A stretch of 64,000 bases of DNA from Siphonodentalium dalli (taxonomy: Eukaryota > Mollusca > Scaphopoda > Gadilida > Siphonodentaliidae): contig CP136067.1 of the NCBI GenBank assembly GCA_032622095.1, forward strand, positions 97,392,707 through 97,456,706, given 5' to 3'. The stretch's first letter is position 1; each line of letters opens with the position of its first letter. Shown piece after piece: positions 6,652-63,900 of this stretch. The position numbers and the translations under genes are program-made. The notes beneath the pieces are model-generated. The model had not been told where the DNA came from. It searched no databases and worked only from the letters and a program-made list of their open reading frames with translations.

Positions 6652-6860
6652 ACCAGTTATTGGAAGTCTGAATACAACACAGAGAAGATGCGTGTCCATG
6701 CATGCATATCGCAATCACGAATACAAATGGCTGACATGTATACCACTTAAATCGCTCGATTAACGGTATCAAATGTGCAAGTAATAGAACCTCACCTATT
6801 AATGGACTTAGTGACAGCAACAATAAATATTCGCCACAAAATTTCGGGCTACCAATACGA

Positions 6861-13252: not shown

Positions 13253-13266
13253 AACTAATATACCAC
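13253..13266 (+). repeat. LINE target-site duplication, 3' copy
   Basis: AACTAATATACCAC, identical to 7281-7294. Its leading A's are ambiguous with the poly-A tail, so the duplication could be a base or two shorter. Confidence 0.9.
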
Positions 13267-28272: not shown

Positions 28273-29457
28273 ATGAGTTCACCAGTCAACCACACTATAG
28301 ACTGGAATGGAACAAGAAACGACACATACAACACAACGGTTCCAGCAACATATCGAGGAGAACTGGGTTATGGCGAGTTAGAACTGATTCCAGAATTCAT
28401 GGCTGCATATTACATCACAATTTATTATAAGTGGGTAATTGCCGGCATTGGAATCCCGGGAAATATCCTCTCAATTTTAATTACAAGTCAGATGAAACCA
28501 ATGGGTTCTTCTTCTCTGCACATATGTGCTCTCGCTGTTGCGGACAACCTCGCTATATCTGCAAAGATTATGTACTTACAGTTGACAATCAACGATGTAA
28601 AAATCGGATCGTTCGGGTGTAAGTTCCTGATTTTCTCGACACAACTTTGGTCGATGTTCGCTAATTGGATCATTGTAGCCATGACGACAGAGAGATACAT
28701 CGCGGTTTGTTTCCCGTTAAAATCCAAACGGTTCTGTACGAAGACGATCGCAATCTTAAAGCTCGCGGTGATCTTGTTATTTCTGATTGGGCTCAATTCA
28801 CACTTTTTCGAGATAATAACAGATACTTATCACCCGGTTCACAGAGAACATTGTGACTATCATACCGATCCAACAACACAGTTTTGGGCTAACAAGGTAT
28901 GGTTTTGGATTGATGGAGCTTTCTTCGCCATAATTCCTTGTGTGATTATCATAGTGTTAAATGTGATGATCATTGTAGCGTTAACTAAATCTCAAAAACT
29001 GAAGAAGCAGATCGCCTCACAGAACGAGAACCAAATCCAGTCCAACGTGGAGCAGCAACGACATATCATGAAGATGCTTCTTGTGGTATCCATTACATTT
29101 GTAATGCTGAATGCACCAAACGCAATTTTCTTTGTAGCGACAACATTCATCGACTATGAAGCCACTCTTCAGAGTTATTCTAACTACATACTAGGGGGAA
29201 CTATTATCATACTTTTGTCAGATTTCAATAACGCGGTTAACTTTGTTCTATACTTCTGGGTTGGGAAGCGGTTCCGTGCAAAATGTATGGAACTCGTGTG
29301 CCGGCGAAGGTGTGGCTCACCTACATCGGATCATGCTTACCCGTGCGTTGGTCGGGTATCAACAGTGAGCGGCGTATCCGAAAATGGTAATACCGAAATT
29401 TCAACGGTCGCTGCTGGAGGAATCTTGGTAATGAAAATAGAAGATAGCCGAATCTAG
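28273..29457 (+). CDS. Class A (rhodopsin-like) GPCR, orphan, peptide-receptor-like
   Basis: A 394-residue seven-helix plasma-membrane receptor with no coding introns. The N-terminus has four N-glycosylation sequons (N6, N12, N16, N20). Landmarks are N64 in TM1, the LAVAD motif with D91 in TM2, C116 at the start of TM3, ERY (140-142) in place of DRY, ECL2 cysteine C194, P222 in TM5, P282 in TM6 within LNAPN (the usual aromatic CWxP is missing), and NFVLY (323-327) in place of NPxxY. TM4 lacks the usual Trp. The layout resembles FMRFamide-receptor-like expansions of lophotrochozoans; the ligand is unknown. It is the only complete member of a tandem cluster, flanked by copy A upstream and copies C and D downstream. 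Confidence 0.85.
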   Translation: MSSPVNHTIDWNGTRNDTYNTTVPATYRGELGYGELELIPEFMAAYYITIYYKWVIAGIGIPGNILSILITSQMKPMGSSSLHICALAVADNLAISAKIMYLQLTINDVKIGSFGCKFLIFSTQLWSMFANWIIVAMTTERYIAVCFPLKSKRFCTKTIAILKLAVILLFLIGLNSHFFEIITDTYHPVHREHCDYHTDPTTQFWANKVWFWIDGAFFAIIPCVIIIVLNVMIIVALTKSQKLKKQIASQNENQIQSNVEQQRHIMKMLLVVSITFVMLNAPNAIFFVATTFIDYEATLQSYSNYILGGTIIILLSDFNNAVNFVLYFWVGKRFRAKCMELVCRRRCGSPTSDHAYPCVGRVSTVSGVSENGNTEISTVAAGGILVMKIEDSRI

Positions 29458-29620: not shown

Positions 29621-30370
29621 ATCGCAATCTTCAAGCTCGCGGTGATCTTGTTATTTCTGATTGGGCTCAATTCACACTTTTTCGAGATAATAACAGATAC
29701 CTATCACCCGGTTCACAGAGAACATTGTGACTCTCATACAGATCCAACAACACAGTTTTGGGCTAACAAGGTATGGTTTTGGATTGATGGAGCTTTCTTT
29801 GCCATAATTCCCTGTATTGTGATCATAGTGTTAAATGTGATGATCATTGTAGGGTTAAATAAATCTCAAACACTGAAGAAGCAGGTCGCCTCACAGAACG
29901 AGAACCAAATTCAGTCCAACGTGGAGCAGCAACGACACATCACGAATATGCTTGTTGTGGTGTCCATTACATATGTAATGCTGAATGCACCAAACGCAAT
30001 TTTCTTTGTAGCGGGAACATTCATCGACTATGAAGCCACTCTTCAGAGTTATTCTAACTGCATACTAGGGGCAACTATTATCATACCTTTGTCAGATTTC
30101 AATAACGCGGTTAACTTTGTTTTATACTTCTGGGTTGGAAAGCAGTTCCGTGCAAAATGTATGGTACTCATGCGCCGGCGAAGGTGTGGATCACCTACAT
30201 CGCAGCATGCATGCCCGCGCGTTGGTCGAGTACCCACATCGATAAATTCACACACATCGGTGTCTGCATGCCCACCAGTGAGCGGCGTATCCGAAAATGG
30301 TGATACCGAAATTTCAACAGTCTCTGGTGGAGGTATCCTGATAATGAAAACATCACATAGCCGAATCTAG
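29621..30370 (+). pseudogene. GPCR tandem copy C, truncated at TM4
   Basis: Homology to the intact receptor starts abruptly at 29621, equivalent to about 28742 (start of TM4), directly after the 3' flank of the intact gene. From there 242 codons are open through TM4-TM7 and the C-tail, with C, P and NFVLY landmarks kept. The tail has an extra insert (TSINSHTSVSACPP) compared with the intact copy. TM1-TM3 are absent, so it cannot form a normal seven-helix receptor. The frame remains open, implying a recent duplication or possible use as a 3' exon, which is less likely. Confidence 0.8.
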
Positions 30371-40679: not shown

Positions 40680-43600
40680 GGCAATGATAACAAGAACAAA
40701 ATGTGGCGGCGTAGACAGGAAACAAAATGGCGTCCAATATGGCCACCGTTTTTAAGACGAGCCACTATAAGTAGGTTTCATGCAAATTATAGAGAGCAAT
40801 AATTGACTATTGTATACAAATGAAAATATCGTTGTGAAGATATGACACAATGCTAGCGTTTTAGGGCAAAATTTTAACTTCCCGGCCTATATGGCTACAT
40901 CAAATGGCCGCCGGAAGTGGAAAATGTGACTATTTTTCACTATTATTTTCTAGATTAGATTCTGCTGTTTGGAACTGGTTCGGATTTGCGTTTTTATTTT
41001 GTATTTTTCATTTTAACTGATCATTGGATCAATGAAATGAGGCATTATGTGGACCCAGGCCCTTCGGATCCCTGAAACATTTGATTTCACAGAACCCGGT
41101 ATAAAATCACCATTGGGATTCTAGTCAGATTTAAAATCTAATTGAACATAACAGTGCAATGTAAGTGAGGCATACCCTTATTTTGTACATTCCAACTCAA
41201 TGGAACCAGAATTGGTAATTGACTCAAAAGGACCGCCAAGATTGCGGCCAAATTATGAAAAACGGTAGATATTGCCCGAGCGCTTCTTGCAATCACTTAC
41301 AAGTTATGGTTCATGAATAAAATCGACTGATATATCTTCTATATATTGAATACAAACCTTGATGGTAAACCTTGGTTAATGGTTACTATTGTAGCCACTG
41401 CCATTACCAAAACTATTACATTTTTTCTCACAAACGTGTCATCAAAATCGGCAAAAATAACTTGTAAGGTTTGGACCATTTTTTCAAGTAAAATTTCGTA
41501 TCAAATGTGTTTATTGTTTTGAACTGTCTTAAACGTATCACACTGAATATTTTTTAGACAATAACTCAAGATGGCTTGCAAAATGGCAACCAAATTTGGT
41601 GAAATGCACATATATCCCAAACATTATTCTCTGCTGTTCCGAAAATGTAGCAAATTGTGACTCACTTGGTTATTAACTGACAATTAAACGTTCTATTCTG
41701 ATTGTCCCAGCACATTGTGAGACACGACAGACTCACTTTAAATGATGCAGTATGGAATTTTGGCGAAAACATTATTTTGGTATTCTGGCCATGTTTTTGA
41801 AAGGAAATGGGCAGAACTTTGAAACGGAACCGAGATGGACCTTACTAATGTGGCTACACTGGCCCATAACATCAAAATTGTTCAACTGAATACAGGGTGT
41901 ATGTCAAGATGGCAGCCATACAGTGTCTGTACAGTTATATGTTTATGTATATATTGAGTGGCGGTATGGTCATGGGTGAGATGTAGAAGTGTACCTTGGT
42001 GGTTGTTTTGTCACAGATGGGTGAATATGTATACATGTGTTGGCTGCATGATCATAGGTGGGACTGGTGGGTGTATGAATACATAGGGAGTGGTTGCACG
42101 GTTATGAGTAATATGTATTATGTGTTCATGGAATGACCGTACGGGCATGTGTGTATATAGGGATTGCCCTTGTTGTAATGGTGTGATGTATCTAAATATC
42201 TGTTGTGGATGTATTGCCATTGGTGGATCTGAATACAGAAAGTAGCTGTATGATCATTCATGAGTATGCAGCGAGTGGTTGAAATGTCATGTGTGCGGTG
42301 TATAAACTAGTCTGGAAGGTATGAGTGGCCGTGTGTGGGGTATCGTGTGTAGGGTATCTGTATATCTGGAAGGGCAGTATGGCCATTGGTGAGGTGTATA
42401 TGTATACATGGAGTGACTCTATGGTCATGGTTGGGGTGTATATATATGCATTGAGTGGTTATATGCCCATTAATGTGGTGAATATGTATACTATGGTGAC
42501 TATGGACAATTATGAGGTGAATGCATGTAGGTACACACTTAGTGACTTTATGAAAAACAATTGGTGAATACCTATACAGGGAGTGACTATATGGTCATGG
42601 GTCAGGGGTAGGAATAAACATGGTGTGCCTGCATGATGACTCATTACAGTATGACGTGTGGGGTGTACGGGTATACCAATTTTGGCTGCTTGGTCATGTG
42701 TGATGTGTGTGTATAATTCGAGTGACTATATGGCGATTGGTGAGGTGTATATGTATACCTGGAGTGACTATGGTCATGGTGGGGTGTATATGTATATCTT
42801 GAGTGGCTATATGGCCATTGATGTGGCAAATATGTATACATGGAGTGGCCATATGGACAATGGTGAGGTGATTATGTATATCAGGAGTGACTCTATGATC
42901 ATGATTTTGGAGAATAGGTATACAGGAAGTGACCATATGGTCATGGGCCAGGTGTATGAGTATAAATGTAACCGGTTTGCATGCGTGCTGACTCATGGCT
43001 GTATTGCCATGTTTGGGGTGTACTTGTGTACCCAAGTGTGGCTGAATGGTCATGCGTGATTTGCATGTGTATAAATCATGGTGGTGTATATGTATATCTT
43101 GAGTCGTTATATGGACAAGGTTATGGTGAATATGTATACAGGGAGAGACCATGTGGCCAATAGTGAGGTGAATATGTATACAAGGAGGGACATCATGCAT
43201 ATGATGAATAGATATACAGGGAGTGAATACGTGGCCATGGGTCATGTGTAGGAGTATACCTGGTGTGTCTGCATGTCGGCTGTATGTCATGATTGGGGTG
43301 TATGGGTATACCCAATTGTGACTATGGTCATGGTGAGGCTTTTGTGTATAAAGTGAGTAGCTATATGGTTATTTGTTTGTCTGGTGTTTATGTGTGTATA
43401 TATATACATAGTGACGGTTTGGTCATGGGTGTCTTGTAAAGGTGTACCGTTAGGGCTATCTCTTTCCACAATAAATCAAGGATATGTTAATCGATAGAAA
43501 TGTTTAATTGTCAATTGATTAAGTAGCATGTCTAACCAAGTGAGTCACAATTTCCCACCATTTTAGAGCAGCAAATAATAATGTTCGGGATATATGTGCA

Positions 43601-43700
43601 TTTTACCAAAATTTATCTTGAATAATTCTGCCTAGAAACACCTCAGTGTGACGCATATAAGACAGCTCAAAACAAAAACACCTTTGATACCAAACATATT
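40680..43700. mobile_element. Foldback-related element with minisatellite core
   Basis: 40860-41920 carries modules also found, diverged, in the large inverted repeat (compare 2770-2930 and 3160-3600: GGAACTGTCTTAA, GCAGTATGGAATTT, GGCAGAACTTTG). 43490-43700 is a reverse-complement relative of about 41480-41700 (TCTAACCAAGTGAGTCACAATTT...). A 42-bp minisatellite (41935-43450) sits between these inverted parts. The arrangement resembles the other arms-around-core elements in the window. Exact ends are uncertain. Confidence 0.5.
41935..43450. repeat. Minisatellite, ~42-44 bp unit, about 30 copies
   Basis: Head-to-tail variants of GGTGTATATGTATACATGGAGTGACTATATGGTCAT. The unit is close to 42 bp, so several frames stay open for long distances. 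The minus-strand frame at 42694-43290 yields a His/Thr/Pro/Ile-rich repeat of 198 codons. I regard this as a by-product and not a gene. Confidence 0.85.
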
Positions 43701-44348
43701 TCCATTTTACTTGGGTCATTGTCACAAGGTATCGACCACAAATGCAGACAGCTTTTCACGGGCGATCATATAATTATTATGTAGCTATCTTGACGAAATA
43801 TATGACGCCATCGGGTGAACAGAAAGAACTAGGGCAATTTCATGACATTTCGCGTATAAAATTGATTAACCTATATTGGATTTTTCCTCTATTATAAATG
43901 TAAGTTATTTTTCATTCATCCACTTTAGAATGTGATTAGCTAAACAATTAGACACGTTCATTAGACCCACATGAATATGAAAAGCTGGCTACGAATGCGA
44001 TCGCCCTAGAAAACATGCCTACATTTGTGATCAATTTGAAAACCTGGCTACGAATGTGATCGATGCCTTGTGACAATAACCCCATCAGCCTAATTGACAT
44101 TCAGAAAATGAATAAACCTCAGCGGAAAGCTACCTTGGCGGGGGATACTCTGGGCGGTGCACTTGTTTTCACATTGATTTTGTGACCTGTCTATTTTATA
44201 AAAAAAAAACTATTTTGCAGAGTTTTGCAGAAACAACATTTACAATTACGGTACGTGCGATCATTTACATATATTTATTTTGTTTTGTCCCGTTACTATT
44301 AATCATCAAATCCTTCGAAATATAAAAATTCAATTGATAACCCCATGG
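43701..44348. other. Intergenic, no gene recognised
   Basis: Unremarkable except for a short duplicated block GCTGGCTACGAATG.GATCG at 43983 and 44044. Confidence 0.5.
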
Positions 44349-44792
44349 ACTTGTATGAATAAGGTTCAGAGTGACATCTAGCGGATGCGGGAGGAATATA
44401 TAGGCGAGAATGAAAAAATAGACACTGGGCCCTGATTGGTCAATAGCCTTGTGTGCTTTTTGCATAAACAAATCATTACACCTCTTCCCTATGATTTCCC
44501 ATAGGTAAAATAGCCATTGGCACAGGAATTAACCCTTTGTAGTGAAGTTTGAATTTTTTGGTGTGGTCTAAAAAATTACAATATGTTTTATGCGGGTCTG
44601 ACACTAGTTACGAAAACACAAGATTTAAAGGCGAATTCCCTGCTAGACAGACATGATTTTTGTGTGTAAAGTTTCCCCAAATGTAAATTTATCAGATTAA
44701 AAAAAAATGTGCACCTAATATTTATATAGCCAACAGCATACGCTAAAACGTTAGCACTGAGGCCTATGGAAAACATTTACACCAGTGTAACC
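44349..44792 (-). mobile_element. MITE-like element, inverted relative of 24235-24680
   Basis: The reverse complement aligns along most of its length with 24235-24680. The GGTTACACT end is kept at 44784-44792, while the other end lacks the matching AGTGTAAC. Non-coding. Confidence 0.7.
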
Positions 44793-44836
44793 TAAAGGGA
44801 AAAATGAGCTTTTTGGCATTATTGATTCCTGGGAAT

Positions 44837-44917
44837 TTACAAAACGCGTCCAGTAAATTAGGTCTGGACCGAGTCTTTGGCGATGTCCATACATAATTTA
44901 CAGGACGAGTTTTGTAA
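44837..44917. repeat. Short inverted repeat, 24-bp arms
   Basis: TTACAAAACGCGTCCAGTAAATTA (44837-44860, cited as position only beyond its TTACAAAACGCGTCC core) pairs with 44894-44917 at 22 of 24 positions, around a ~33-bp loop. It lies 45 bp from the MITE-like element and may be another small foldback. Confidence 0.65.
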
Positions 44918-47054
44918 CTTCCGCTATAAACTGGGGGCTCATTGTAGATCCTCTATATATCACACACAGGTGTCGTTAACATAACTTTACAATATGCACC
45001 AACACTCCTGGCCCTCAAGGCCTATATGTCACGTTAACCCTTTCAACATTGCACCGAGTGGGCCCTATACCGTGAGCGCCCATGATGTTTTCAACTATAC
45101 TATAGACATATATGCCTACTGCTAGTAATGTTGTATCTACCTGAAACACAGATGGTCCTGGTAGAGCTTTGATCATTATAAGTTATCTTTCTACCGCCAA
45201 GAGTTCACTGCGTATCAACGGTTTCTAGGCAACTACTAGGTATTCAAAGGAGCAAACACTATTGCTTACGACATTGTTATTATAGCTTCAAAGGCTGCAT
45301 TCCGGTGGCCGGTCTTCACAATCGCGCGCATAATCGGCGTAAAACGCCTTTGTTTACCAAGATTTTGACAAGTCATGATGATCATTAATCATATTATAAT
45401 ACAAACACTATGCGAAACTGGTGGTTAAAGAGACAAATCGGCCAAAAACCGGCGAAACATATGCGCAGAAAAGTGTGGTTTTCATCTCGTGATCACACCC
45501 CATATAAACCTGCTAAATGTGCATCGTAATTGCCAGAATTGACGATTGATGTACGAAACTTGACCACATAATTAATTGAGTTATAGTAGAAGACGTTCGA
45601 ACTTCGACATCAAGTAAGTCAAAACTTCTAAAGTTACTTTTGATGACGAGACAATATTGCCATTTCCTGAAACATTACTTGCAGTTCGGTGCAACTGTGG
45701 TGCACGTTTGTGATTGATTGGCTGATTTGGGTTAAGAGGAACAATACGTTGGACAGGGATCATTATTTTTCTGAATTAAGTCACTGGGATCGGGATGGGA
45801 TATAAAGTAACATTTTATCGTCAATTAACTTTTGGCTTGATAAATCTATGATTCACTGTTGCAATAGAACTAACTATACGTAAAGTTTAGCATATAGACA
45901 TTCAATTCTGGGGACAAGAAATGAAGCAGCCATTAAAAGTGATTATGGGTAACACTATTGTGGGTAATTAAATATTAAACAGTGTGACGTTACACATGAA
46001 AGAGAAATTGCATGCTGATCCATAACACAGGAAAACACTGATATGCTGTCAGTATCAATACCGATCATGGTTAGGTGGTCCTGCCATATTTGGTACGATA
46101 TACGTGGGCAACGAGATGCATTGTCGCGGTCGTTGAAGTCTTGGTCTGATAAGAGTGTATATGAATGAATTATGAATAATGTATTATAGAGACATGAATA
46201 TCCATCATACAGCAAAAAGGTCACATACATGTGACCACAACATAACACTATCATATTCGTCGATACCCCGACCATCAAGGCCTATATGTAAATTTAAACA
46301 TAATACATTTTATATAAACTTAAGTGCAGATCGGTTAATATTGATTTACAGTTATTTTAAGGAGAGTTTATCTATGTTGGTGAGAGATATACAAATACTT
46401 TGCTACCTGGATCGGATACTGATTCATAACCATCTCAGTTAGACTTCACCATCATCGTGTATTTAGAGACATATTGTTGATGCCACTAGACACAGACTCA
46501 GAATACAAAGCTAGATCTGGAACAATTGAATCGCGAAAGCCATCAGGTACCAGAATACATCAAAGGTGACAGTGTAACTCAAATTATGTGTAATTATGAC
46601 AAGTGTCAATGTTATATTGTTTGTACACGGTTCTTCCACTCTCGGTAAAATATATCCTAACACCATATGAGGACTCCATCCTCCTGATAAAAACGCCCAC
46701 ATAGGTTCTTGATGTTTTCTTTGGGCGTTTTCTTCTCATCCCTGATCATCCACATATGTCGGGTAAGTCATTAGTATCACGGAACGGCTCAATATGTCAG
46801 CATTAAGACATCGGTGTCATTTCTGATAAATGGTTGAGAAACCACTTGGTTGACATTTTGATCCATGTGACACGACGAATTGGAATAATATTTTTATATA
46901 TGATCTATTGATCGTGAAATAGACAATGAAACGGAGGCAGTTAAAGAACATACATGGTGTTGGTTCTGGGAATATTTAAAATTCGGTTTGTTGTGTGGTT
47001 TGTTGTTTAAAGTTGTCGGCGCCAGCACCAGTTTTTTTTTAAATCGGCAACAGT
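44918..47054. other. Intergenic, no gene recognised
   Basis: Several 60-107 codon open frames on both strands lack recognisable features. No repeat of note was seen by eye. Confidence 0.5.
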
Positions 47055-47073
47055 TGGTGAAACAACTCTTTCA

Positions 47074-47142
47074 AATTACAAGATGAAGCAACACCACCGC
47101 CAAAGGAGTGGTTCATGGTAGAAATCGAAGGCAACAAGGTAA
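47074..47142 (+). CDS. Possible short internal exon (very tentative)
   Basis: An open stretch encodes about KLQDEATPPPKEWFMVEIEGNK and is followed by a good splice donor (AAG|GTAAGA at 47140-47146). A long T-tract and AG lie upstream (47031-47055). Residue composition looks protein-like. No neighbouring exons were recognised, so this could be chance. Confidence 0.2.
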
Positions 47143-48750
47143 GACGTTAGTTATTTATTCATGTTAGTATAAGGTATTTCAGACTAATCACTTGGTTATA
47201 TATTAATCATTCAATGTGTTCCTTCATATTTGGTATAAGATTACTGAGAGTTTCCTAATAGTATAGTGGTTTTGAAGAGTGAACCTAGAAAAAATTGTTA
47301 TAAAGCCAGTTTTTGTATCATTTTGACCGGGAATATTTCGACAACAATATATCCAAAATCCGCTAAAATCCGCTTTGGGGAAATTATTTTACCGACATTT
47401 GAATACATGCAGGGATTTTCGTCATTATGACACAAAATTGCCGATTGCAGATAAGATACATGCAGACAGTTTACTTGTGTGAGTTCTCAAACCACGTATC
47501 AGTGGCCAATTTGCGTGGATAATTGTCATATGAGTATACGATACTTTACGATAGTACGACCCACAACAGTATAGGCCACCTGTGCCTTCCACTAATAAAG
47601 AGCGTTAAAGTAGAACTCCAATGCAAGCGTGCGTGCCACAATAAAGAGCGCGTTCTACGAGCTTTGGAGGACAACGCCATTATACACGTAAGCCATGTGT
47701 GCGCTCAAGTAAAAAAGTGCATGCGTTATCATAGAACGTCATAACGCATGTCACTTCAGTTGTGTAAGCAATAGTTCACATTGTTCGCAGTTGTTTCTCA
47801 TTTATAATTTCGATTTTATAACTCTAATTGTGAAAGTAGTGAAAGTTGTTTTTAGGAGTCGGTCACAGGTTTTCCGTTGAAACCTAACGGTGACAACATA
47901 CGCAGATTCGTTATTACGTGGGAGAATCCAGATGATTGATCATGGATTACACGCCATAGTTCCGCAAATGAACAGACCAGATTACACTCTGTGCAATACA
48001 GTTATGCATGTAAACGAACAGATCCTAATCGCTATTTCGTGGATTTTTGTGGATTTTCATGGATTATTGCAGAATATATACGATCCATATCAAATAATAT
48101 AAAATATGTAGCTGAATCTGTGCTGTCGAGTGTATTGATAGTAACGCGAGGGACCACTTCGATTGGTGGCGAATTTGAAGCTTGTCAATTTCAACATGTT
48201 CATTTCATAATTATATTCATAAAATGTAGCCCACACACATGTTGATTTCAACTAAACTCGGCGATTAACGTCATCATTTACCGAATTTGAGTGATCGAAC
48301 CTAAATGTATCTTCTGCTGTGTTCGTAATTATATGTTCCTTCTTACTCAAGATATAGTATGATTATATGATATCTATGTATTAACAACTAAGTGTATGTA
48401 CTTTATATCTAGTATTTAAACAAAAAATCCATATTTAAACTGTTTTGTTTCGTTAAATGCAGTCATCTCGCAGTCTCTGTAGTGCCTAAACACAGGCATT
48501 TGTTTGGTCAAAATACTTTGAAGATAAAGCTTACTCAAGATTTTAATTCGGTCCTATGTCAAGAAGAATAGCATCGACCATGCCATTGTGCAGGGCGCGT
48601 GTCCACGTTTGGTTATAACACCATCACTGTTCGGACTCGGCATAGAAATGAACCATGTGTTTGTTTCCAAGTGACTAGTGAACGAGTAATCTCGGTTGGG
48701 ATTCTCTGTTACCAACTTTGATGGCAGGGGATGATTGCAATTTCAATGAT
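47143..48750. other. Intergenic, no gene recognised
   Basis: Scattered short open frames only. Confidence 0.5.
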
Positions 48751-49361
48751 ATGTGATCATGAGACAAAAGCGATTGAGGGTTGATGAGCTCGTGATTGAT
48801 AAAGGAGTGTCCATCCCTAAATATGTTGATGTTATTGACAAAGGAATTTCCAATATCAAACTGAAAACTCTTCTTCGTTTGGCCACATCTTACACCCTCC
48901 CATCTGATCACAGCACGGAACGCATGTGGCCATCATCATGTTTTTTCAGTAAGAGTTGAGACCTAGCTCGAGCTGGTCAGGATTCATGCAAAGTGCTTGC
49001 TCGCTGGACGACACTGACCGCTGAGAAATCAGATGTTCTGTTCCGCCCCATCAGTTACGCTACACTCATGTATGTTGACATAATATACAACATAATATTT
49101 GTCAAATGTATTATGCATTAATATGTGTATATTTAAATAATATATCCTATCCTTGAGGAACATGTACGTAGATTGAACACACAAACCCTGTGTATCCCTT
49201 TCGGCCATATTTTGTGGTTCAAGGCGGTAAACACAATAACCTCTAAGTCAATGAACATATAGTGAGTTGGCTCGGATGATTTCATACTGTAGTGAGCTTC
49301 ATGGAGTATCGCCTCGATGATGAAGGGGTTGGTACAGTGACCCATGATATATTGAAATGCA

Positions 49362-50760
49362 GTGTCGAGGGTCTTGCTTGATCTGTACCTAGTTGATTGT
49401 GGGCTTTTCAATAAGTTGATAGCTGAAGTTGTCCCAGTCGAGAAGGACATCAGTTCTGCGGACAATGAATCGATAAAGGAACAAGATGGCACAGTAGCAT
49501 CACAAGTAAAACAGGCTGATGTCCACTTTAATGTTGGCGAAAACACGAATTGGCAAAGGCTCTGACTGATTTCGTTCTAGAAGGCGAATATTCACAGAAG
49601 GGAATTGACGCCATTCTTGGTGGCGAAGCTGTTCTCCATACAGCGAAGTGGATCAAAAACTCAACATACAATGAAGTAGCCATATGCGTTATCGGAAGTA
49701 AGTCCAAACAAAGAGTATGGCTCGAGTTCCATCGTGTTCGATGGTTCGGTCATAGCTCGTCTATTAAAGATCACGAGCACATCCGGCAATCGGCAAAACG
49801 TGCCGACGTTCGGGTCACTGACAAAACAGTGATCCACAATAACCAGCAAATTTTCCTCCCAAATGAGAGAAACAAAAGTCAGTTCATCAAATTGAGGGGC
49901 GCCTCTGATCGGATGATGGGCACGCAGTTCACTGCAGTGGTGACGCTGGTACTTTTAGAGTTTCTCGTGCCCCATCGTTTGAATCCCATGGAAGAAATAT
50001 CATGGCTATCGCGGACGATACAGATCTGATTCTTCTTTTGAATCGTCACTGGAAATCGACCATGGCCGACAATATGATGCTCGGAAACTAGCAAAGGTGG
50101 TGCGGCCATATAGCGATTCGGCGACACAGTGCGCAAGGCTGGACATTTTACAACTTCTCATATCCTGTTTGCACATGTATGTGGATGCTGTGATACCACC
50201 TCTGCATTATTCGGACATGCGAACATGAGTCTGTTGAAGTTCGCAAAAATATTACTCACGCAGGAGTCTATTGCAAATCAGAAACAATCGGCGAGGCCGA
50301 CATGCGGCTTTACCTTGTGTGTGGTGGTAAGAAAGAAGACTAACTAAATACACTTCGCCATGCGAAGTGTATGGACATGGTATCTTCTAGCAAGACTGAC
50401 TGCGTTAGAGCCCAAAAACTACCAAACGAAAGAGCGGCAAACTATCACAGTCTCAGAGTTCATCTGCCGGTCTTGAATCGGAGAATACTGAATAACGACG
50501 TATTGAATCATGAGATATGGGGTTGGGGACTTCGTGTCGCGGAACATGCCCAGTTATGAATGACCAGTATGAAGCCCAATGCGTATTGCTCAAGTCGGTA
50601 TAGTGCAAGTGTAAGATGACACAAACAAAACATGTGATATGTGTGCATCTGTCTCACATGTGTTATCGCTTGTAGAGAGGGCTGCATTCATTTAAAAGAA
50701 ATACTGGTAGGAGATGAAAAGGATGAGGTTTGAGTATATTGATATATCTGATACACAAGT
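49362..50760 (+). pseudogene. Decayed gene 2 of an expanded PIN/FEN-like + Cys-rich family
   Basis: Successive frames carry conserved blocks of a large uncharacterised animal family. These are IKDHEHIRQSAKRADV and FLPNERNKSQF (frame starting 49550), then HCSGDAGT and ADDTDLILLL at 50011-50040 in another frame. A stop follows at 50089-50091. Next come TSHILFAHVCGCCDTTSA (about 50150-50206) in a third frame, and NERAANYHSLRVHLP to NNDVLNHEIWGWGL (50371-50559). A cysteine-bearing tail may run to about 50760. At least three frame changes and several stops show it is dead. The first catalytic-like Asp (usual FDGY) reads as EFHRV and one GDADT Asp is Gly. The N-terminal half upstream of 49362 is not recognised. 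The minus-strand paralogue lies at 53918-58549. Confidence 0.75.
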
Positions 50761-51315
50761 CCGAAATTATGACTCATTTCCATATGCTGGTCATCACTGG
50801 CCGATCTCTATCAACAAAATAAAAAATACATAATTGTCATTTTGGTGGTCATCTTTGTGGCCATCCTTCTGGCTCCCTGTGACCGATATTTGGTCAAAAT
50901 TAGAATCAGATGGTGTTCGCATTTTTTATCTGAAAGAAATAATATACAAACCTTTGTGATCGGGTGTGATGTGGTACGATTGCCATGTCAGCCTCCAGAT
51001 CGGTAATATCCACGCGCGGCTACATGTACACGTAAGCTGAGTTATACCTTCGTCCATGTTGCACAAGTTTAGCCCTTTGTAAAAAAAAACCCAATACCAA
51101 TAAAATTTATTTTGTGTAGTCGTAAAACAACATGTTTGATATAGAACGGTTTACAAAGTGAATTTTGGTTCAACACGTGCGTTAAATATGTATAGTTATA
51201 CAATTAACTGCAACGTTCCTAATTCGAATGGAATGTTCCATTATAAACAGGGCTACAAGTCCCAATACAAACTTACCATTATAATGTGCAGTTGTAGTCA
51301 TATGCTTGGGGCCAG
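50761..51315. other. Intergenic, no gene recognised
   Basis: Contains AATGGTGGTCATCTTTGTGG-style dispersed repeat fragments near 50840-50880. No gene. Confidence 0.45.
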
Positions 51316-51319
51316 ATAC

Positions 51320-51490
51320 ATAACAAGTGCAATGTAGTTACACACAAATGTAGTTAAAGGTTATGGTGGTTAGCTGGACGATTAGTTAACTACAAAAGTA
51401 GTTAAAGGGTATCATTGTCCGCTGAACGAGTAGTTACACACATGTAGTTAAAGTTGTTCGTTTGTGTCCACTGAATGAGTAGTTACAAAA
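51320..51490. repeat. Tandem repeat, ~55-bp unit, 3 copies
   Basis: Units carry TAGTTACACACA.ATGTAGTTAA, AGGTTAT and a GCTGAACGAG spacer. Starts lie near 51334, 51385 and 51430. Confidence 0.7.
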
Positions 51491-53202
51491 GTGTCCATTC
51501 AAGAGTAAAATTATTGTTCAGACTATCAACAGTAACGGTTACAATGCGACATTTGGAAGTTTTTAAATATATATGGTTACCTTTATGTTAGTTAGTTTGA
51601 TTGCTGCCGATACTTCCAACAAAAAGGTAAAACTAAAAGGCATAAGAATAATTCAAACCTATTATTGAATCCAAAACCAAACATGAATTCAAGATTAACA
51701 GTTACAATGTTACATTTGGATGTCGTTTAAACTGGTCCCGGAAGGATTCGCTAATTACACATGGTTACCATTGTGTTACTTGGCTAAGTTATTAGACCAT
51801 TTATCAAAGGACGTATAACCTATTGAAATTTTCTGGAAAAGGGTATATTGTATGTTATACTTATCGTAGAGAGTTCTGTAATGGTTTATGGCGGTGAAAA
51901 CATATAAAGAGCGTACATCTTGATATCAATTTAAGATCATAGAGATCGTATTCAGATTCAAATAATGCCGATATGTGTTTATTTATGTTTTTGAAATAAG
52001 GTCAATATGAGCTTTTTTTCATAACAGGCATACTGATACTTCAATATTGATTTTCTCAAAATTCGGCTGGAATTTCTTTGTTAAAGATTTATACATATCA
52101 TAGATCAGTAAAACCTAAATAAGATAAGCCCACTTTGTATGCCTTTATGACACGAAGAGTAAGTAAAATATCACATTAGACAAAATGATATATCTGAAGA
52201 TCATGAGCAGGAACTCAATGTTCTTGATTCAAGAAATGTCATGCTTACGTTTATTTAGAAAGATTGGGAATGTTCATGCCATTGCTGCTGAAAAAAATGG
52301 CTGAAGTGAACTCTAAATAGTAAGTCTATAATGTGGTCGACAATAATGTGGGACGAGACTGTACACAAACATATTTGTTCATTGGCTGATATAGTTGTGA
52401 CGGCCTTGCTCCTTGTTGCATTATATCGAGTATGTACTTATATCATGTGATGTATAATTTAATTCAACACTATGGCACACAAGAAGCTCCCACTCAAAGA
52501 ACCAAGACAGTAATTTATTCAGTGATTTGCAATCTGTGTATTTTAAGTGACAAATCAAAATAATCTTACAAAACAGCGGATTATGCACCCAATTAAATTC
52601 CATTCTATCATCAATAAACGTCAATGAACGTCACTATCTCATCTTGATATCACTTCAAATGAAACAACTTTGGTTTTGGCACATTTCACACCGGCACACG
52701 ACAACATTCTGCACACCATGTTAATCTTGAAGTTTCTGTCGATCAGCATGTTCTTATGACACCAGGATACGACTCTCCAGAAGCTCAAACATATGTTAAG
52801 GCCTCTCATAGTGTATGTTTATAATTGTTTTGTGATATGTTTAATTGAATATTATGAATCGAATATGAAATTTTGTTTCCAAAAAAGCTAACGGCGTAAC
52901 AACAAAAAATGTATGCAATCGACAGTTTTATCAAATTTAGTGCCCTCCTCCCGTCAACTTTCTCAAAGCTGAACCACTTTATTAGATTCCTGTTATCATG
53001 GTGTTAGGTAGATATTGGCGACGAAATTATATGCATCACTTAAGTGTACTCGCACACCCCGCATCGGATCCCGACCCCTAACTCTGACGACATCACTCGG
53101 GCAACAGTAAACAACCCTATTATATTCCTCGTATCGCTGAAATATAGTTGTATATACACAATGGGCAATATAATAGGAATCCAAAGAAATCCGGATGATG
53201 CC
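51491..53202. other. Intergenic, no gene recognised
   Basis: AT-rich. 52930-53040 resembles one unit of the 22.86-23.95 kb array (TTAGTGCCCTCCTCCCGTC..., GGCGACGAAATT). No gene. Confidence 0.45.
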
Positions 53203-53330
53203 TAGTAGTATAGCGGCTAAGACCAAAAATGTGAGGCAATCGTGCACTTTTGAGTAGAAGCATAGAACTTTGTATACACCTTCAGGGACATCTAAGAAAC
53301 AAAATTTGATATGGACCTAATTGAAATAAC
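53203..53330 (-). repeat. Dispersed repeat, inverted partner of 61535-61650
   Basis: In reverse complement this reads TTCTACTCAAAAGTGCA, then TTTTTGGTCTTAGCCGCTAT and ACTA. These match 61604-61650, and AGGTCCATATCA matches near 61545. The function is unknown. Confidence 0.6.
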
Positions 53331-54040
53331 CACTTTGGTGGTCACCACAACCACTTTTGGAAAACACCCAATTTTTTGGACAAAATTTAACAACAAAAAA
53401 AAATTCCATTTTTTTACTTCATAAGATGATCACGATGTTTAGCAAAAGTGTAGTTAGAATGTTATTTGGCAGTTTTTAGTATTATTACTATTTATATATG
53501 CGTTCAGTGTTCCAGACCTCCAATTACAACAACAACATTTCACATGAAAGCATAATCATATCACATTAGGCCTACTCATTGCTAGGTACAACCAACATGC
53601 AGTATTGTTGAAATCGCAAATAAAGAAAGTTATTTCAATGCCAAATCAAACTTCTTTCTTAGTGACCCTCCATATTATTGAAAAGAAGCAAATCAATGCA
53701 TATTATACTATAGATGTTCTATTAATCTCTCAAAATGAAACTGTTCTGCTCAAACATTGTTTTATATACTATATATATAGACCATAGAGCAAAAGCGAGA
53801 TATGTTTTGTGATGTTTGTCTGAATCTTGAATGTTCTAGAACAATCTTATATATCGAGTAGAACTATAGACTGGTATATCAATAGTATTATAAGCACTGT
53901 TTATCCAGTAATATCCCTTAGTCTTGGTAGCAACTGCCATCACATTTGCACAATGCAGTACATTTTAGGTTGGCTTTAGAACTGCATCTGTTTGCACATG
54001 CTTTCTTACAGCCACAGCAGATAAGTTCGTAACATGTATC

Positions 54041-54278
54041 TTTGACCTGTGGTAGTCCATACAGGCACCCATTTACTTTCCGAGTCACGCTCCCATCCCC
54101 ACGAAGATGGACTGGGTAAGTCTGGATCAGGTATCATTGACTGTCCCCAGATATGCCCTTTGACCTTTGAGTAGTCCATACAGGCACCCATTTACTTTCC
54201 GAGTCACGCTCCCATCCCCACGAAGATGGACTGGGTAAGTCTGGATCAGGTATCATTGACTGTCCCCAGATATGCCCT
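54041..54278. repeat. 119-bp tandem duplication in gene 1 C-terminal region
   Basis: The block around GTAGTCCATACAGGCACCC to CCCCAGATATGCCCT occurs at 54041-54159 and 54160-54278, nearly identical. As 119 is not a multiple of three it adds a frameshift before the Cys-rich tail. High identity implies a recent event, after the gene had already decayed or as part of the decay. Confidence 0.9.
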
Positions 54279-54562
54279 GCCTGGTAGCTAGACCGCGTAG
54301 TATGTTGCTTAAGAGCATCACGTGTTGGTGGTATATTCTCCAAATTATACGACCTCTTTGCGAATAACTGCCTTCTTATATGGTCTACAGATTTTGACCC
54401 ACTGTTCCTATCATACATGTTTACTGTATATGCTTCTATTGATTGGAAGTCATCGTCTGAAATGTTCACTGGAGCGGATGCTAATTTTACAAAGGCGTCT
54501 GTAACATTCGGGCATGAATTCCAGGTATCCCAAGCTGTCTTTTTACCTCTGCGAGCAAAAAA

Positions 54563-55393
54563 TTATACAACATCACATCCCGAGAAGGCGTGAAACATCA
54601 GCATTCCGAGTGACTTTTGTGGACCGAGTTGGTTGGCCATTTCATGAGCAGGTAGGTATCTCAAGTGCTTCCCTACACCAAATGCTATCCATACATGTGC
54701 CTGCTTCTGCATGTGGGAAACAACAATCACAACAACATCGGTGTCAGCAGTTCTTACCATCACAGATTCAATTCCACAGTTAACCGCATCAGCAACATGA
54801 AGCATCACGCGGGTATCTGCTTCCTCGTGCATGCATGGCGAAATGGAAGATTTGTTAGCTCTGTCGTGAGATGAAAGAACCAATTGTTGTAATGTAGCAT
54901 ATACCTCCTTGTTCTTGACATCAATTAGTACCACTTGTTCTGTCAAAAGTTTGAATAATTCAGTCTTGTTTTCGTTGACGCGCAGGAAACTTTGCCAATT
55001 CCTTGGAACTTGTGATGTTGCGACAACCTTTCGTCGAGCGCCAGATCCCCTTTTTTGACGTGTGGCACATTTCAGGCTATCATCTCGATATATATCCCAT
55101 ACAACATCCACACGGTTGGCTGATCTTAGCTGCATTTCAATGTACTTTATAGAAACATTGTCAGCATAATCTTGGAAAGTTTTAGAAGTTCCCGGTGGTA
55201 GCATCTGTACAATGAAAGCGCCATCAAGAATAACAGCATTCACGTTTGGTGCACGGTCTTGTGATTCGGCAATTGATTCCAAACATGGTAGTAGAGCCAG
55301 AACGCGGTTCATTGTGTTTGGAGAGAGCTGGTGGCCACGGTTGGTTCTCATGCCTGGCAAGCTATATGCAATCGACAAACAAGGCACAGTCAC
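54563..55393 (-). pseudogene. Gene 1, PIN/FEN-like domain fragment
   Basis: A 276-codon frame whose family-like part starts at about residue 34 (LLPCLESIAES). Evenly spaced acidic residues (D58 in VILDGAF, D100 in VDVVWD, E191/D193 in EEADTR, D217/D219 in TADTDVVV, D274 in SGCD) resemble the metal-binding acids of PIN/FEN nucleases. This fold assignment is my inference. The frame ends at an in-frame stop where the family normally has residues linking GCD to the GRGKKTAWDTW block, which continues intact in the same frame below 54562. Confidence 0.8.
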
Positions 55394-55535
55394 TTTTCAG
55401 CTCTGTAATTTGTCCCTTCCGAAGTACAGGTTTGTTTTTCTTTGAAAACAAAGGCAATTTATTTTTCCTGATCGGTTCAGTTATTGGCTTTGCTACTGTA
55501 TTCGTGAACCTCTCCAATACAAATTGTTCATACTG

Positions 55536-57638
55536 TTATTTGTCTAGTTTGCCAATATTTTTCACTGCTTGGACAACTGAGTCAGTCATAACTTCTTTGG
55601 TATCTAATGTGTACAAGTCACCGCTATCTTCATCGAATGGATTTCCCATCTCCTCAAATGCAGCAACTATGGCTAATGTATCTTTTTGGAAGGTTAACTG
55701 CAATTTGTGAGTCTGCTCGTGGTGCTTTGTAGCAAAGTTGTCTTCAGTGCTCGCTTCGTATCGACTCACCATTCTGGATATCTCTGGCCCCGCAAGCATC
55801 CATCGTTTCAGTGCAGCCGGATTCTCAGTGAGACCTACCGCACCACCTTCCCCTTTCACCATAGCATTAACTTTCTCATGAGCCTGATCTAGGGCCATAC
55901 CGGAAAACTTCCTTTGGGTTTTGTGAGCGACGAATTTCCCAGATGAAAATTCTTTAAATAAGGTCGGGTGTTGGGTTTTCAGAGCGCACATATCCCTCAA
56001 ATGAACAGATAACCATCTGGAGTAATTGATGTGGTCTAAGGCAAATGCCCATGGTAGTAGCTCAGCTAACGATTGCATATATAGCTGGAAATCTGCTTCC
56101 CGTAACGATCGTATAAATGAAAGTAATATCAGCTCAAATTTCAGAACAAGATTCCAGTATAAAAATTGTGGTTGCGACTGCATCATAGAGTCGCACCAGT
56201 TCTCAAAAGACAATATAGATCTGTCATCTTCACCATAGAGGTTGCTGTAGTTCACGTAAGCACGCTGTTGCAAAGTATAGAGAGCTGCAGCAGTCAGCTG
56301 ATGGGCACGCCGAGTTCTTGTTACCATAGAAGCTTTTACAAAGGAACCGGCAACACCACTGTTGGCAACACCAGCATTACATAACGTATTCGACCACCCA
56401 CTACCATCCAAGAAATCACCTAATGTCTTTAGCGCTGTCATCTCAATGTGGAGCCCACCAAGCATAATCAGGATCTTATCCTCACCGTGTGTTGTCGGAG
56501 AATTCCACTGAATGGATTTTGCTATTGCGAACAACGGTTGGTCCATAACAAGAACTGGGATTTGAACTGGATTGAGAAATTTGATAGCATTGTGCACAAT
56601 GTCCATAGAATGCTTAATCATTGGAACTGACTGTGCGTGGTCAACAAATAAAGGCAGAAGCGCGATTTCCGTACAAGGGTCTGTGAACGGTTGCTGGAAC
56701 GAAGCACGGAAAGCTGCCCAACACAGGTAATCCCCACCGGTGAGCTCACTTTTCTGTGCTTGGGTATAGACATGTGCAAGCCATTGATATTCTTGAGAAA
56801 CGATGGGTTGAGCTGGTGTTTCTACAATAACAGGACCGGCCAATTTCGGTACAACCGGGTCTGAGTTTGACAGTTTTGCAGGCGGAACATCACTGTACGT
56901 GTTGGGCAGATTACTAATAGAATGCTTCTTCGTGACACTTCCATCTATTATAGGACGATCACGAGAGATTCCTTTGCATGTCGATGTCGGATGCTGCATT
57001 AGTGAAATTGCTGTTCCATGGAATGAATCTGAAGCATATGTAGAGCTGGGATTTTGGTCTATGTTGTCCACGGCTGCTGTTGTGAAAATGTTTTTCAATA
57101 GTTTTGGCGGGCAAACCACACCATCAGCTTCATACTGCGAACACACACCATTGGCAACATCGGTTGAAATTGTTAGTAAGCGATCATATGAGATGCATAA
57201 ACCAAAATTGTGCAATGTGTCAACGAGTCCACGTTTTCTGGTTTCAGAATGTATCTTCATAGCCAAATAAATGGATGCTGGGGTCTCACGTTCTCTACTG
57301 TGACGTTGCTTGTTTGGTGCTGAATTTTTATTGCTCCTATCTTTCACAACATTGAATGAAATTAGTTGAGACAGCGTGACAGCTGCTGGAATTGGATCAT
57401 TATAAGAAGCTTGTTGCTCTTTAATGCCAGGTCCATTTAATATCATGCTTACTAAAGCGACCAGTGAAGATGGAACAGACTTTTGCTGACAATCGGACGG
57501 AAAGTCGCCATTGAAGTGTTGGTTAGTTTTTAATATATCTCTGCGTATAAGTTTTGCAGCTTTGGAGAAACACAGAGCTTCTGAATCAAAATCCTGTTCA
57601 CATGAATGTTTAATTGCATCGCCATCACCAAACGCCAA
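55536..57638 (-). pseudogene. Gene 1, central core fragment
   Basis: About 680 of 700 codons are genuine, beginning near FDSEALCFSKAAKLIRRD; the first codons from the apparent Met are out of frame. It includes SVPSSLVALVSMIL, the conserved NYSRWLSVHLRDM, and SGKFVAHKTQRKFSGMALDQ followed by GGAVGLTENPAALKRW, all typical of the family. The region is mainly alpha-helical in composition with no known catalytic motif. After its stop at 55536-55538 the same frame still carries family-like sequence (ERFTNTVAKPI, RKNKLPLFSK) to a second stop at 55362-55364. Confidence 0.85.
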
Positions 57639-58549
57639 TAAAACATCTCTACCCTGGCTGTGGGGGTGAGCTCTGGAATCGCGGATAATATACGGTTCTT
57701 TAACCTTGTAGCATGCACATTGGTTGGAAACACACTTAAGTCTTGTAGTCTAGTTCCGTATAGTTTGCACAAATCCGATAGATTGAATACGGGGGAACAA
57801 TCACTACTCTCACGCATACATGTTATATGCTCCACAAGCTCTGCGAATACTAATCCCTCTATGCTGGCATCAGCTGATCGTACAGATGGCTCTTTGTGTA
57901 AGTTTCCAACGCGGCGGTAGAAATTACTCAAACATGAAATGTGATATACAGCATCAATTGCTACCATGTCTCCAACAGCCAATTTTGCTAACAGTTTGGT
58001 ATCATTCAGCTCGGTTGCTCCTTCAAGCACCTTAGTATCTAACTCCAGTGTTGACGCCTTATGGAGATGACCAGAACTGTCATCATTGTCGCAGAATATG
58101 CATATCATTTCGTCTTGAGTCGCGTTACATGTTTTCCTAGTCTTGATGGGGTTTGTGGAGGTGCTTGCAGCTTCATCGTAAATAAGTCTTTTCTTTGGCA
58201 CCGGCGTTGTGCGCGATTTACATAGTTTGTTGCGACAGCACTTGTGCCAAACAGCACTATGCAGCATCAATGTTTCATCGAAACCCAATCCCTCATCAAG
58301 TAATTTTACATCAACACCAATTTGGATATTTGTATTTGTCCGTTCTTGTTGCAGAGTATCGGCGACATATTTGTACCCAGCACCAACATCTTTTCGTTTG
58401 GACCGCATTGGGCACTGGAGAGCTTCTGGCTTGTCAGTCTGACACAATGCACATTTTGTCCAGTCAATTGGTTTAGATGGCGTTTGATCAACTGTGCTGG
58501 ATCCCGGAGAACAGAAGTCATGGTTTATCAGCTTGAACTTTTTGGACAT
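57530..58549 (-). pseudogene. Gene 1, N-terminal fragment with two zinc modules
   Basis: This 339-codon frame starts at the natural Met (MSKKFKLINHDFC). It contains two related modules: C33-x2-C36 ... AVWHKCC (H102, C105) and C150-x2-C153 ... DAVYHISC (H203, C206). The repeated A-V-aromatic-H-x-x-C ending supports an internal duplication of a C-C-H-C zinc fold. The frame runs past the true junction: after NIHVN the family continues in the frame of the next fragment, so the last ~20 codons are out of frame. Confidence 0.8.
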
Positions 58550-58662
58550 GGCTATACTGGTTGAATGATCCCAGACAAATCAGATATTCGATGTGGCATT
58601 CCTGTGCAAATGTAGTTTGACTTTGCGTCCCGAGATTCCTGTATCCATACGTCGATTTGGTC

Positions 58663-60023: not shown

Positions 60024-60095
60024 GGAAATGTTCATATAATAAGTTCAACAAACGACCAAATGGTCGTTTGTTGAACTTATTATCTGAACATTTCC
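60024..60095. repeat. Near-perfect palindrome, 35-bp arms, 2-bp centre
   Basis: GGAAATGTTCA.ATAATAAG... and its reverse complement meet at AACGACCA-AA-TGGTCGTT. There is about one mismatch in 35 and almost no loop. In single strand it would form a cruciform or hairpin. Confidence 0.9.
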
Positions 60096-60118: not shown

Positions 60119-60910
60119 GGACATAATTCTGTTTCCTAGGCCCCAGGAAATAATGGACAGCATTTAGTTTCTAAACCCTTGCCAGGATATCTTGCCCCAT
60201 TCGTTCCCAAACAAAATCACCTCACCCCCCCCCCCCCAGAAAAGTTGGACAAAATACTGTATCCTAGGACTCTAGGCACTTGCCAGGATTTCTTGCCCCA
60301 CCCGTTCCCAAACAAAATCACCCCCCCCAAACAAATTGGACAGAATTCTGTTTCCTAAGCCCTTGCCAGGATATCTTGCCCAACCCGTTCCTAAACAAAA
60401 TCACCCCCCCCCCCCCACCCCCAGAAAAAATTGGACAGAATTCTGTTTCCTAGGCGCTTGCCAGGATTTCTTGCCCCACCCATTCCCAAACAAAAATCAC
60501 CCCCACCCCCCCCCCCCCCCCAAAATTGGACAGAATTCTGTTTCCTAGGCGCTTGCCAGGATTTCTTGCCCCACCCATTCCCAAACAAAAATCACCCCAC
60601 CCCCCCCCCCCCGAAAAAAATTGGACAGAATTCTGTTTCTTAGGCGCTTGCCAGGATTTCTTGCCCCACCCATTCCCAAACAAAAATCACACCCACCCCC
60701 CCCCCCGAAAAAAATTGGACAGAATTCTGTTTCATAGGCGCTTGCCAGGATATCTTTCCCAACCAGTTCCTAAACAAAATCACCCCCCCTAGGCCCCAGA
60801 AAAAAAAATCAACTCCACCCCCCCCAAATAAATCTGTATACTAGGCCCCTGAAAACAAAATGGACAGCATTTTGTTTCCTAGGTGCTTGCCATGATTCTT
60901 GACCACCCGT
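60119..60910. repeat. C-rich minisatellite, ~94-bp unit, about 9 copies
   Basis: Each unit has GGACAGAATTCTGTTTCCTA, GGCGCTTGCCAGGATTTCTT, GCCCCACCCATTCCCAAACA and AAAATCACCCC plus a variable C-run. Units start near 60119, 60152, 60247, 60339, 60433, 60528, 60623, 60718 and 60860. The central four are nearly identical, the outer ones diverged, as expected for unequal-exchange homogenisation. Overlapping open frames on both strands are repeat by-products. Confidence 0.9.
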
Positions 60911-63900
60911 TTCCCAAACAAAATATCGTGTCATGGGCGAACTCGCGCGAACACTGCACAATGTGTGAAAATCATAACGAAACGGCTTTCCGTAGAATGG
61001 GTTTCCGTAGGTGATGGCGGAGGTCAACAGTACTATTAGTTTTGTTGATCGTAATTTTCAACAGCTGTATGGCTATATCCATGGACCATGTTCATACGTA
61101 ATACACATTTAGCTTTACATATATGGACTTAGGGTGGTATTGCGACTATGATTTGTTTGAAATACGGTGAATATAGTTTCAAATCAAACGTAGCACGAAG
61201 GGAAAAAAGCACGGTCAATTGGCATTCTCCACACATTCTAATATTTCGTCAACCGTTGCCAAATTGCGTAAGTTTACGGCAAATGTGATTAATAATAGGG
61301 AGTTTGGTGCTGTTGTTTTTGTTTTTACCTTTGATATTTATTTTGTATTGGATAATTGGTCGTAATTAGCAATGTAGCAGACGCAGCAATTGAAAACGTA
61401 TCGTATTTTTTTTCAAGTAAACAAAATCTCGCGCGCTGTTTATTAAAAATGTGGAATGACATTGAACAATGAAGCGGATCGATTTCGACCCAAACTTGTT
61501 ATATTTTGAGGTGCCCTTGTGTGAATATGAGAGAACTTTGAGAAGAGGTCCATATCAGAAATTAATCACCTTGGTCCATAGTATCAATATGTAAAGTATG
61601 GGACTTCTACTCAAAAGTGCATGATTTTTGGTCTTAGCCGCTATACTATAGCAAGGATGGTGCGATTACAGGCCTAATTGTTTAACAATACTTGTTCAGT
61701 TCAACAACTTTATTACAAATACAATCTATATCTATACTTGCGAATGTATGTCTGTCTGTCTGTGTTCTATAAAAATGAACACGGGACCACTCAGATGGCA
61801 TCAAAGGGGTCTACCACAGCATTTTTACTAGGAAGATAATGGTCCAGGCTAAATATTTCTAAAGTGAGTCTTTCAGTGTCAGGGGCAGAACAGAGGAGGC
61901 ACAACAAAATCGTATGTGCAGGACGTTTCGGCACCTAGTGTTCAGAATGTTTCGGAATCGAGGTTTTTAGGCAATTGATTTTTTTGGCCCAAGCACTTGG
62001 ACGTTTCTGCACTTCATCGAAGACATTTCGGCACATGCCTTATTAACAAGTTTGACATAACTAGTACACAGTTGAACATTTGTAGATGTAGAAATTTATA
62101 TCATATTTCGTTTGAATAATGACTGCATTCGCAATGTTATCTCGTTGTGTATTATGAAAAGTGCAGCTAACTTCTCTAAACTTGGCGTCTTATATAAATA
62201 CGGCTCAATGCATTTTCTTAGTTCTCTGATTGTTGACACCAAAGATATAACGATTCTCAATTTCGATGAGTTATGCTGTATAATAAACACACTATGCGTT
62301 GTGTAGCTTTGGGAACTCGGTGTTTGAAACCTCTGGCGCTGATATAACTGTTAATGTTAGGGAATAATCGGTTTCTATTTCATATGTCGGATTTGTCATC
62401 TCCTGTTTAAACATACATTGGCGGTCCAGCCAAACCGGGTCTAAGGGGGCGTTTTTGTCGCTAAGTTACCAACTAATTGACACCTCGATTTGGTGATATG
62501 AGCATACATTCAAACTACCCTCTTACCTATCGGACCAAAAGACAAGCCGATATCATGATTATTGACATGTCATAAATCATTGAGAAATGATTATCGCTCA
62601 TGGACCATTAATCCGATCTATTTGTGGGTTTAAATCAATCTGACAAAGGGCATGTCTCTCAACACGAGATTCACGTGCTGTTTATCACTTTGTTTGTGAT
62701 TGATTTTCTGCAAAATGCTTTACCCGCAGAGACACAATTTGGTGTATTTACATGTATATATGTATATACTAAAGGGTATATGAGCTGTATATATGTATGT
62801 CCGTTTGCATGTTCGCAACTGTTCTAAAACTGATTTAAAAATAAGTAAAATATAATTTTAAAAAAATGAAAAAATTGTGTTGTTAAATTGAGTAAGGAGT
62901 TGTATCTAACAAGAAACAATATTTAAAATTTATATTAATATTTGTTTGTTTTAAATATATATTTTTTTTATATTAAAATGTCCAAATGATTAAAACGTGC
63001 GCAAATTGGACACAGGCTCCTGTCGCACGAAGGGGCCAAAGGACCCTCTGACGCTGAATAAAGGCTCCAAAATCGAGTCAATCCTGGACCAAGAGGTCAG
63101 TCAAGTAAAAGCAATTTGCTTATGAGTACACAGCAGAAGCGGCATTTGAACTGTTTGAAGTGGGCAACTATACAGAGGCACAGCTTTTAATAAAGAAATA
63201 TATTACATGCATTGTTTTTTTTTCAATGTAATAAATTTTCCGTCGTACAGAAAATCAAAAAGTTCCCAGGTTTTGAACTGGTGGAATATTATGGGAATTT
63301 ATGGGCGGATCAATAGTAGAGCTTTGTGCATGATCTACATCAAAATAAGTTATCAAATTTGACTCATATGGTAATATAAGTTTAGGATTGCAAACCACGT
63401 GTATAGCATAGCTGTTCATGAAGTAGCATCGTTTTGGTATAAAAATTAATACGTTGAACCATTCAAATGAATTCTTAGAAAAAACCAGTATTTGTGATTG
63501 CAACAAGCCAAAAAAAAAACCCCCACAAGATAGTTGTAAAAATCATACTGAATGAACATGTCCATATCTGAGCAAAGTTCGCGTGCGAATGAATCACCTG
63601 TGACATGATAACACCAGTCGACAGCCGCCACTTAGACAGGCCCTCACTCTAGATAATTTACAGTGCCCCCCTTTGATTGATTGTTAGACAATTCTAAACC
63701 GCGATGAAGAAAAGACGGATTCGTCATCTCAAGTTTAGCCTCGGTAATGCTGGTTTAGCTGGACCGCCGAATTAGATGGTTTAGTTGCCGGTTTAAGCTT
63801 ATAAAGTGCAAACAATATATCGAAATTGACAAAAACTTATCCCCACACCCTTTATAGGTGTGATAACTTCTCGCTTATAAATTTCCAATTAAAATATTGT

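Follow-up and report, generated by a model that had tools for sequence, protein, structure and literature searches.

Academ proteins carry an XPG-type nuclease, and the AcademH and AcademX lineages of this superfamily were reportedly defined by Kojima in 2020. In the literature searched, the whole words Academ and XPG never occurred together. In the passages of the published sources that bear on these elements, Academ is listed as one Repbase superfamily with a DDD/E transposase (PMC9587614), and its two lineages differ in both gene content and target site duplication (TSD): AcademX is nuclease-encoding, with a TSD of 3 or 4 bp, and AcademH is helicase-encoding, with a TSD of 9 or 10 bp (PMC10045372). 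The curated bivalve Academ elements have a mean length of 5,565 bp, which places them with the longest DDE/D elements curated for bivalves (PMC10294476). A nuclease is also carried by the DDE transposons KolobokD, KolobokE, and KolobokP; the types given are DEDDh, PD-D/ExK, and His-Me finger (PMC9587614), none of them FEN-like.

The window, the whole stretch of 64,000 nucleotides of Siphonodentalium dalli DNA that was analysed, contains a minus-strand gene at 53918-58549, which is enclosed by a pair of terminal inverted repeats (TIRs). The boundaries of the element, and a repeat inside it, are as follows.

53203-53205, no strand: TAG in the printed sequence, left copy of a putative 3-bp target site duplication
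53206-53318, plus strand: left TIR; its outer 25 nt are identical to the other arm, and the looser similarity stops near 53318
60141-60924, no strand: C-rich minisatellite (unit length about 95 bp) that the element contains upstream of the gene
61546-61648, minus strand: right TIR, which pairs with the left TIR
61649-61651, no strand: TAG in the printed sequence, the right-hand counterpart of this putative duplication

All 25 bases pair between 53206-53230 and 61624-61648, an inverted match at 96% is seen for 53238-53260 and 61604-61626, and a looser alignment reaches 69% over 115 columns (113 nt of the left arm and 103 nt of the right arm), after which the similarity ends. The blastn score of the TIR pair was 55.4 bits, compared to a maximum of 31.9 among 100 shuffled pairs. 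In addition, a 17-nt TIR core, with 3 mismatches allowed, was found at 2 sites in the window, which are exactly the two TIRs, where 0.03 were expected. The TAG lies immediately outside each TIR, and the element measures 8,443 bp from end to end, a length (8.4 kb) above the 5.6-kb mean of the bivalve Academ elements. The flanks match for 3 bp only, in this one copy, an agreement with a chance of 1 in 64 at a fixed border, and they could also be parsed as a duplication of 2 bp (TA) next to a shorter TIR. The inverted repeats around the 53918-58549 gene are new relative to the preliminary description, which had proposed a mobile origin; for this gene, the TIR score and the TAG on both sides support that proposal.

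Upstream of the gene, a stretch of 3 kb has no open reading frame of at least 120 aa. A near-perfect hairpin also lies inside the element at 60024-60095 (35 nt, 97% complementary, 2-nt loop).

We consider that the segment 53206-61648 is probably an autonomous DNA transposon, now dead, that belongs to the AcademX lineage of the Academ superfamily. AcademX is the best reading because the putative nuclease and the candidate TSD of 3 bp fit its published description and because Academ elements are long and occur in animals. We infer the Academ identity of the protein, and the AcademX lineage was assigned from the published description. The locus resembles AcademX as a DNA transposon with TIRs, a short candidate TSD, and a putative nuclease gene, whereas its flanks can be read as TAG or as TA and the copy is dead. 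With AcademH it would share the superfamily, if the Academ assignment holds, but the AcademH TSD is 9 or 10 bp, whereas the flanks here match for 3 bp only. Pfam detected no helicase domain in the gene pieces searched, a set to which the 57-codon stretch described below and the 3 kb upstream do not belong. Counting against the AcademX reading, a 2013 paper gives the extra protein of Academ as a RecQ helicase and does not name a nuclease (PMC3627910); the length of 8.4 kb and the lack of an upstream reading frame count against it as well. The family had at first been called undescribed and perhaps of a type absent from the standard catalogues, a view that is not supported under the Academ assignment, as Academ is among the Repbase superfamilies (PMC9587614) and AcademX is given as nuclease-encoding (PMC10045372).

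The gene at 53918-58549 forms a single coding track of 4,632 bases on the minus strand. It changes frame twice, carries two in-frame TAA codons, and is further interrupted by a tandem duplication of 119 bp. Its parts, from the 5' end of the gene, are as follows.

57530-58549, minus strand: N-terminal stretch of 339 aa, proposed to bind zinc, with C-x2-C and H-x2-C pairs
57533-58549, minus strand: open stretch of 339 codons, in the first frame
55539-57749, minus strand: long middle open stretch of 737 codons, in the other frame, with a 217-nt overlap with the 57533-58549 stretch; proposed transposase core, no library match
55365-55535, minus strand: open stretch of 57 codons that follows the TAA at 55536, in the same frame as the 737-codon stretch, and prolongs the middle region
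54137-55396, minus strand: acidic nuclease-like region, called P0001, with ILDGA, VWD, HEEADTR, ADTDV, and GCD
54566-55396, minus strand: open stretch of 277 codons, in the first frame again
54137-54562, minus strand: open stretch of 142 codons, after the TAA at 54563
54040-54278, minus strand: 119-bp tandem duplication inside the gene (TRF, 98% matches), with a length that is not a multiple of 3
53918-54136, minus strand: C-terminal portion, which carries the Cys-rich tail and ends in the final TAA (53918-53920)
53921-54133, minus strand: open stretch of 71 codons

The TGA at 54134 falls within the tandem duplication. The gene is dead, and the whole protein cannot come from the copy as it stands. 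A minus-strand gene at this position, as first described, is confirmed by the open stretches, and its description as dead by the frame changes, the in-frame stops, and the duplication; HEEADTR, ADTDV, GCD, and the Cys-rich tail are all present in it.

In the N-terminal stretch, the Cys/His pairs include C-x2-C at residues 33 and 150 and H-x2-C at residues 102 and 203. Searches of Pfam, NCBIfam, and PHROGs with the protein gave no meaningful match, the best being SgrA_ig-like for the N-terminal part (E 0.066) and PRK02492 for P0001 (E 0.061). The middle stretch at 55539-57749 had no match in these three libraries or, by sequence, in the PDB. The acidic residues in its VMDQPL, ALDHINY, and DQAHE motifs are our candidates for a putative DDE core.

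For searches with the acidic region, P0001 was taken as the 420 codons of 54137-55396, one TAA among them being translated as Ser. Its motifs lie at positions 56 (ILDGA), 99 (VWD), about 190 (HEEADTR), 217 (ADTDV), and 273 (GCD). A FEN-order pattern of seven acidic positions in hydrophobic context, which was drawn with P0001 in view, matched P0001 and 19 of the 23 archaeal FEN1 frames, but none of 1170 other open frames of at least 250 aa and none of 20000 shuffles. The FEN1 alignment was built from 23 of the 25 fetched loci, two (L165 and L182) being left out as having no frame. Conversely, hhalign of P0001, as a single-sequence query, against archaeal FEN1 gave a score of 15.0, which is at the noise level (mean 16.2 and maximum 30.5 for 100 shuffles), and no FEN/XPG family profile in Pfam matched the nuclease-like region at E 10. 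AlphaFold, run without relatives, returned no usable model for the whole or the trimmed region (pLDDT 32.9 and 31.7, respectively), and a sequence search of the PDB with the nuclease-like stretch gave a single match, at E 1.6. P0001 resembles FEN1/XPG (Pfam XPG_I, PF00867) in the order and rough spacing of its seven acidic positions, but differs in having no Pfam match or significant profile match. Because hhalign, Pfam, and AlphaFold did not support the FEN-order motif match, we infer a nuclease by reasoning from the motifs, and the region is termed nuclease-like in that sense. With the PIN/FEN-like Asp spacing noted in the preliminary description, the motif order is consistent, in a test drawn with P0001 in view, whereas the hhalign profile comparison and Pfam do not support it.

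That the protein is named by no library would also suit another or unnamed DNA transposon superfamily, in which a transposase and a FEN-like nuclease were joined independently. We regard this as unlikely, since the candidate TSD length and the putative nuclease content match the published description of AcademX (PMC10045372) and Academ elements are given as long and present in animals (PMC10294476). Quite unlikely, too, is a group of DNA transposons separate from Academ that would combine a transposase with a FEN/XPG-type flap nuclease and be represented in a single host by two ancient, divergent members.

The ends of the element were also considered as possible insertions in their own right. 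The outermost TIR bases, 53206-53216 and 61638-61648 (TAGTATAGCGG), resemble a Pol III A box, and only a single TIR pair is found in the window. Both points would suit a reading in which the inverted repeats were two separate SINE or MITE-end insertions, in opposite orientation, that flank the dead gene by chance. However, a B box is absent in the first 295 nt (left) and 299 nt (right) from the TIR ends; tRNA and Rfam searches gave no match in the window, nor did a loose-threshold search around the left arm, the one arm so searched; the arm similarity ends after about 110 nt; and the TAG flanks fit a single insertion. Two separate insertions are therefore decidedly improbable, and we rejected the idea that the TIR ends derive from a tRNA or a SINE, as neither a B box nor a tRNA/Rfam match was found in the stretches searched. 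It is very improbable that the gene belongs to a domesticated nuclease family of the host and has decayed there to a pseudogene, rather than being a transposon gene, since it is enclosed by TIRs and TAG flanks and, as a weak argument, another probable relic is found about 2.4 kb beyond the element.

For this second relic, which lies on the plus strand, the feature is as follows.

49362-50760, plus strand: older, strongly decayed relic outside the element, probably from the same family of proteins, with the nuclease-like region and tail only

Read in three frames, it shows ADDTD, GCCDTTS, and a Cys-rich end. The EAD that is seen is EADM, which is placed after GCCDTTS, so that the order of the acidic motifs differs from that in the first gene. 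Of the motifs first reported for this relic, ADDTD and the Cys-rich end were thus recovered, whereas GCCDTTS stands in place of GCDTTS and EAD is out of order. A 37-column match to the first gene, at 35% identity, falls in the expected place (E 6.7). A frameshift-aware local alignment of the relic with the first gene gave no significant score (42, a value reached by 52 of 200 shuffles), and the best of 92 window segments scored 56.

In a colinear-chain test with free gap extension, the observed score of the relic against the first gene was reached or exceeded by 2, 1, 0, and 0 of 300 shuffles in the four settings, and among 161 segments the top score went each time to 49701-51099, a segment overlapping the relic. 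In a wider colinear scan, the segment 49001-51000 was the first of 220, with a score of 168 (mean 125.5, sd 12.1), and a GPCR segment scored 163. When the same scan was run with the N-terminal and middle parts, to look for more of the relic or for a third copy, the best segments were the minisatellite region inside the element, with a score of 156 (mean 112.3, sd 11.6), and a LINE, with a score of 192 (mean 150.3, sd 13.2), which are taken as composition effects. Because these parts are equally extreme at the minisatellite and the LINE, the colinear test overstates significance and lends the relic weak support. When affine gaps were used, the 7 best segments listed did not include the relic.

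Around the relic, a comparison of 43000-49500 with 50600-53900 detected no inverted repeats above chance (lowest E 0.76), and within 47000-53900 the best inverted repeat, among the matches listed, was 28 nt at 71%. We lean toward reading the relic as probably a divergent family member, left by an earlier insertion that was independent of the first. A high copy number had been suggested, but a pair of relics within 10 kb, of which one is uncertain, is no measure of it.

Relatives were also sought in viral, phage, and genome-contig collections, where absence says little because no animal genomes are among them. In the viral contigs, three protein queries gave 2 pattern matches each, none of which was confirmed. 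A degenerate EADT...DxD pattern returned 37 stretches in the viral contigs and at least 120 in the genome contigs, and tblastn on 157 such stretches gave, among the matches listed, a best E of 0.43, the level of chance. A second pattern, taken from the match between the two window genes, returned 22 viral-contig stretches, with no tblastn match at E 0.5 or below; its 2 matches in the window arise by construction and are not evidence. The phage records gave 4 matches at E 0.4-0.5, which were taken as chance.

If the AcademX reading is followed, the N-terminal Cys/His motifs would help the protein to bind DNA, probably at the TIRs. The middle region would act as the DDE transposase, by which the element would be excised and inserted with a 3-nt stagger, what is seen of this being the TAG flanks. 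The FEN/XPG-like domain may trim flaps or 5' ends at the excision or integration junctions, and the Cys-rich tail may be a zinc- or DNA-binding appendage.

Proteins with HEEADTR, ADTDV, GCDTTS, WGW, and a Cys tail are, we assume, common in invertebrate genomes; those of the HEEADTR, ADTDV, and Cys-tail type are presumably abundant there, usually labelled "uncharacterized", and inflate gene counts. Annotation benefits when 53918-58549 is labelled as the gene of a transposon and the ends of the element are recorded.

Several other features were seen in the window, the content of which points to eukaryotic DNA, with a LINE that has endonuclease and reverse transcriptase domains and with GPCR genes of the rhodopsin type. 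A 1.77-kb inverted repeat pair at 1918-3684 and 13247-15030, 97.8% identical over 1786 columns, encloses the LINE, which has an open EN-RT frame of 1272 aa at 9097-12915 and an upstream frame of 282 aa at 7518-8366. No target duplication was obvious by eye at the outer ends of this pair; inside it lie two further repeats at 98%, one inverted (3849-4197 and 6854-7203) and one direct (4196-4670 and 6176-6651). Rhodopsin-type GPCR genes form tandem duplicates at 28273-29454 and 29642-30367, the DNA of which is 87% identical, and an upstream GPCR fragment at 24920-25483 has a short match to the first of the two. An inverted repeat pair at 24232-24675 and 44349-44794, 88% identical and about 20 kb apart, may represent copies of one unnamed repeat.
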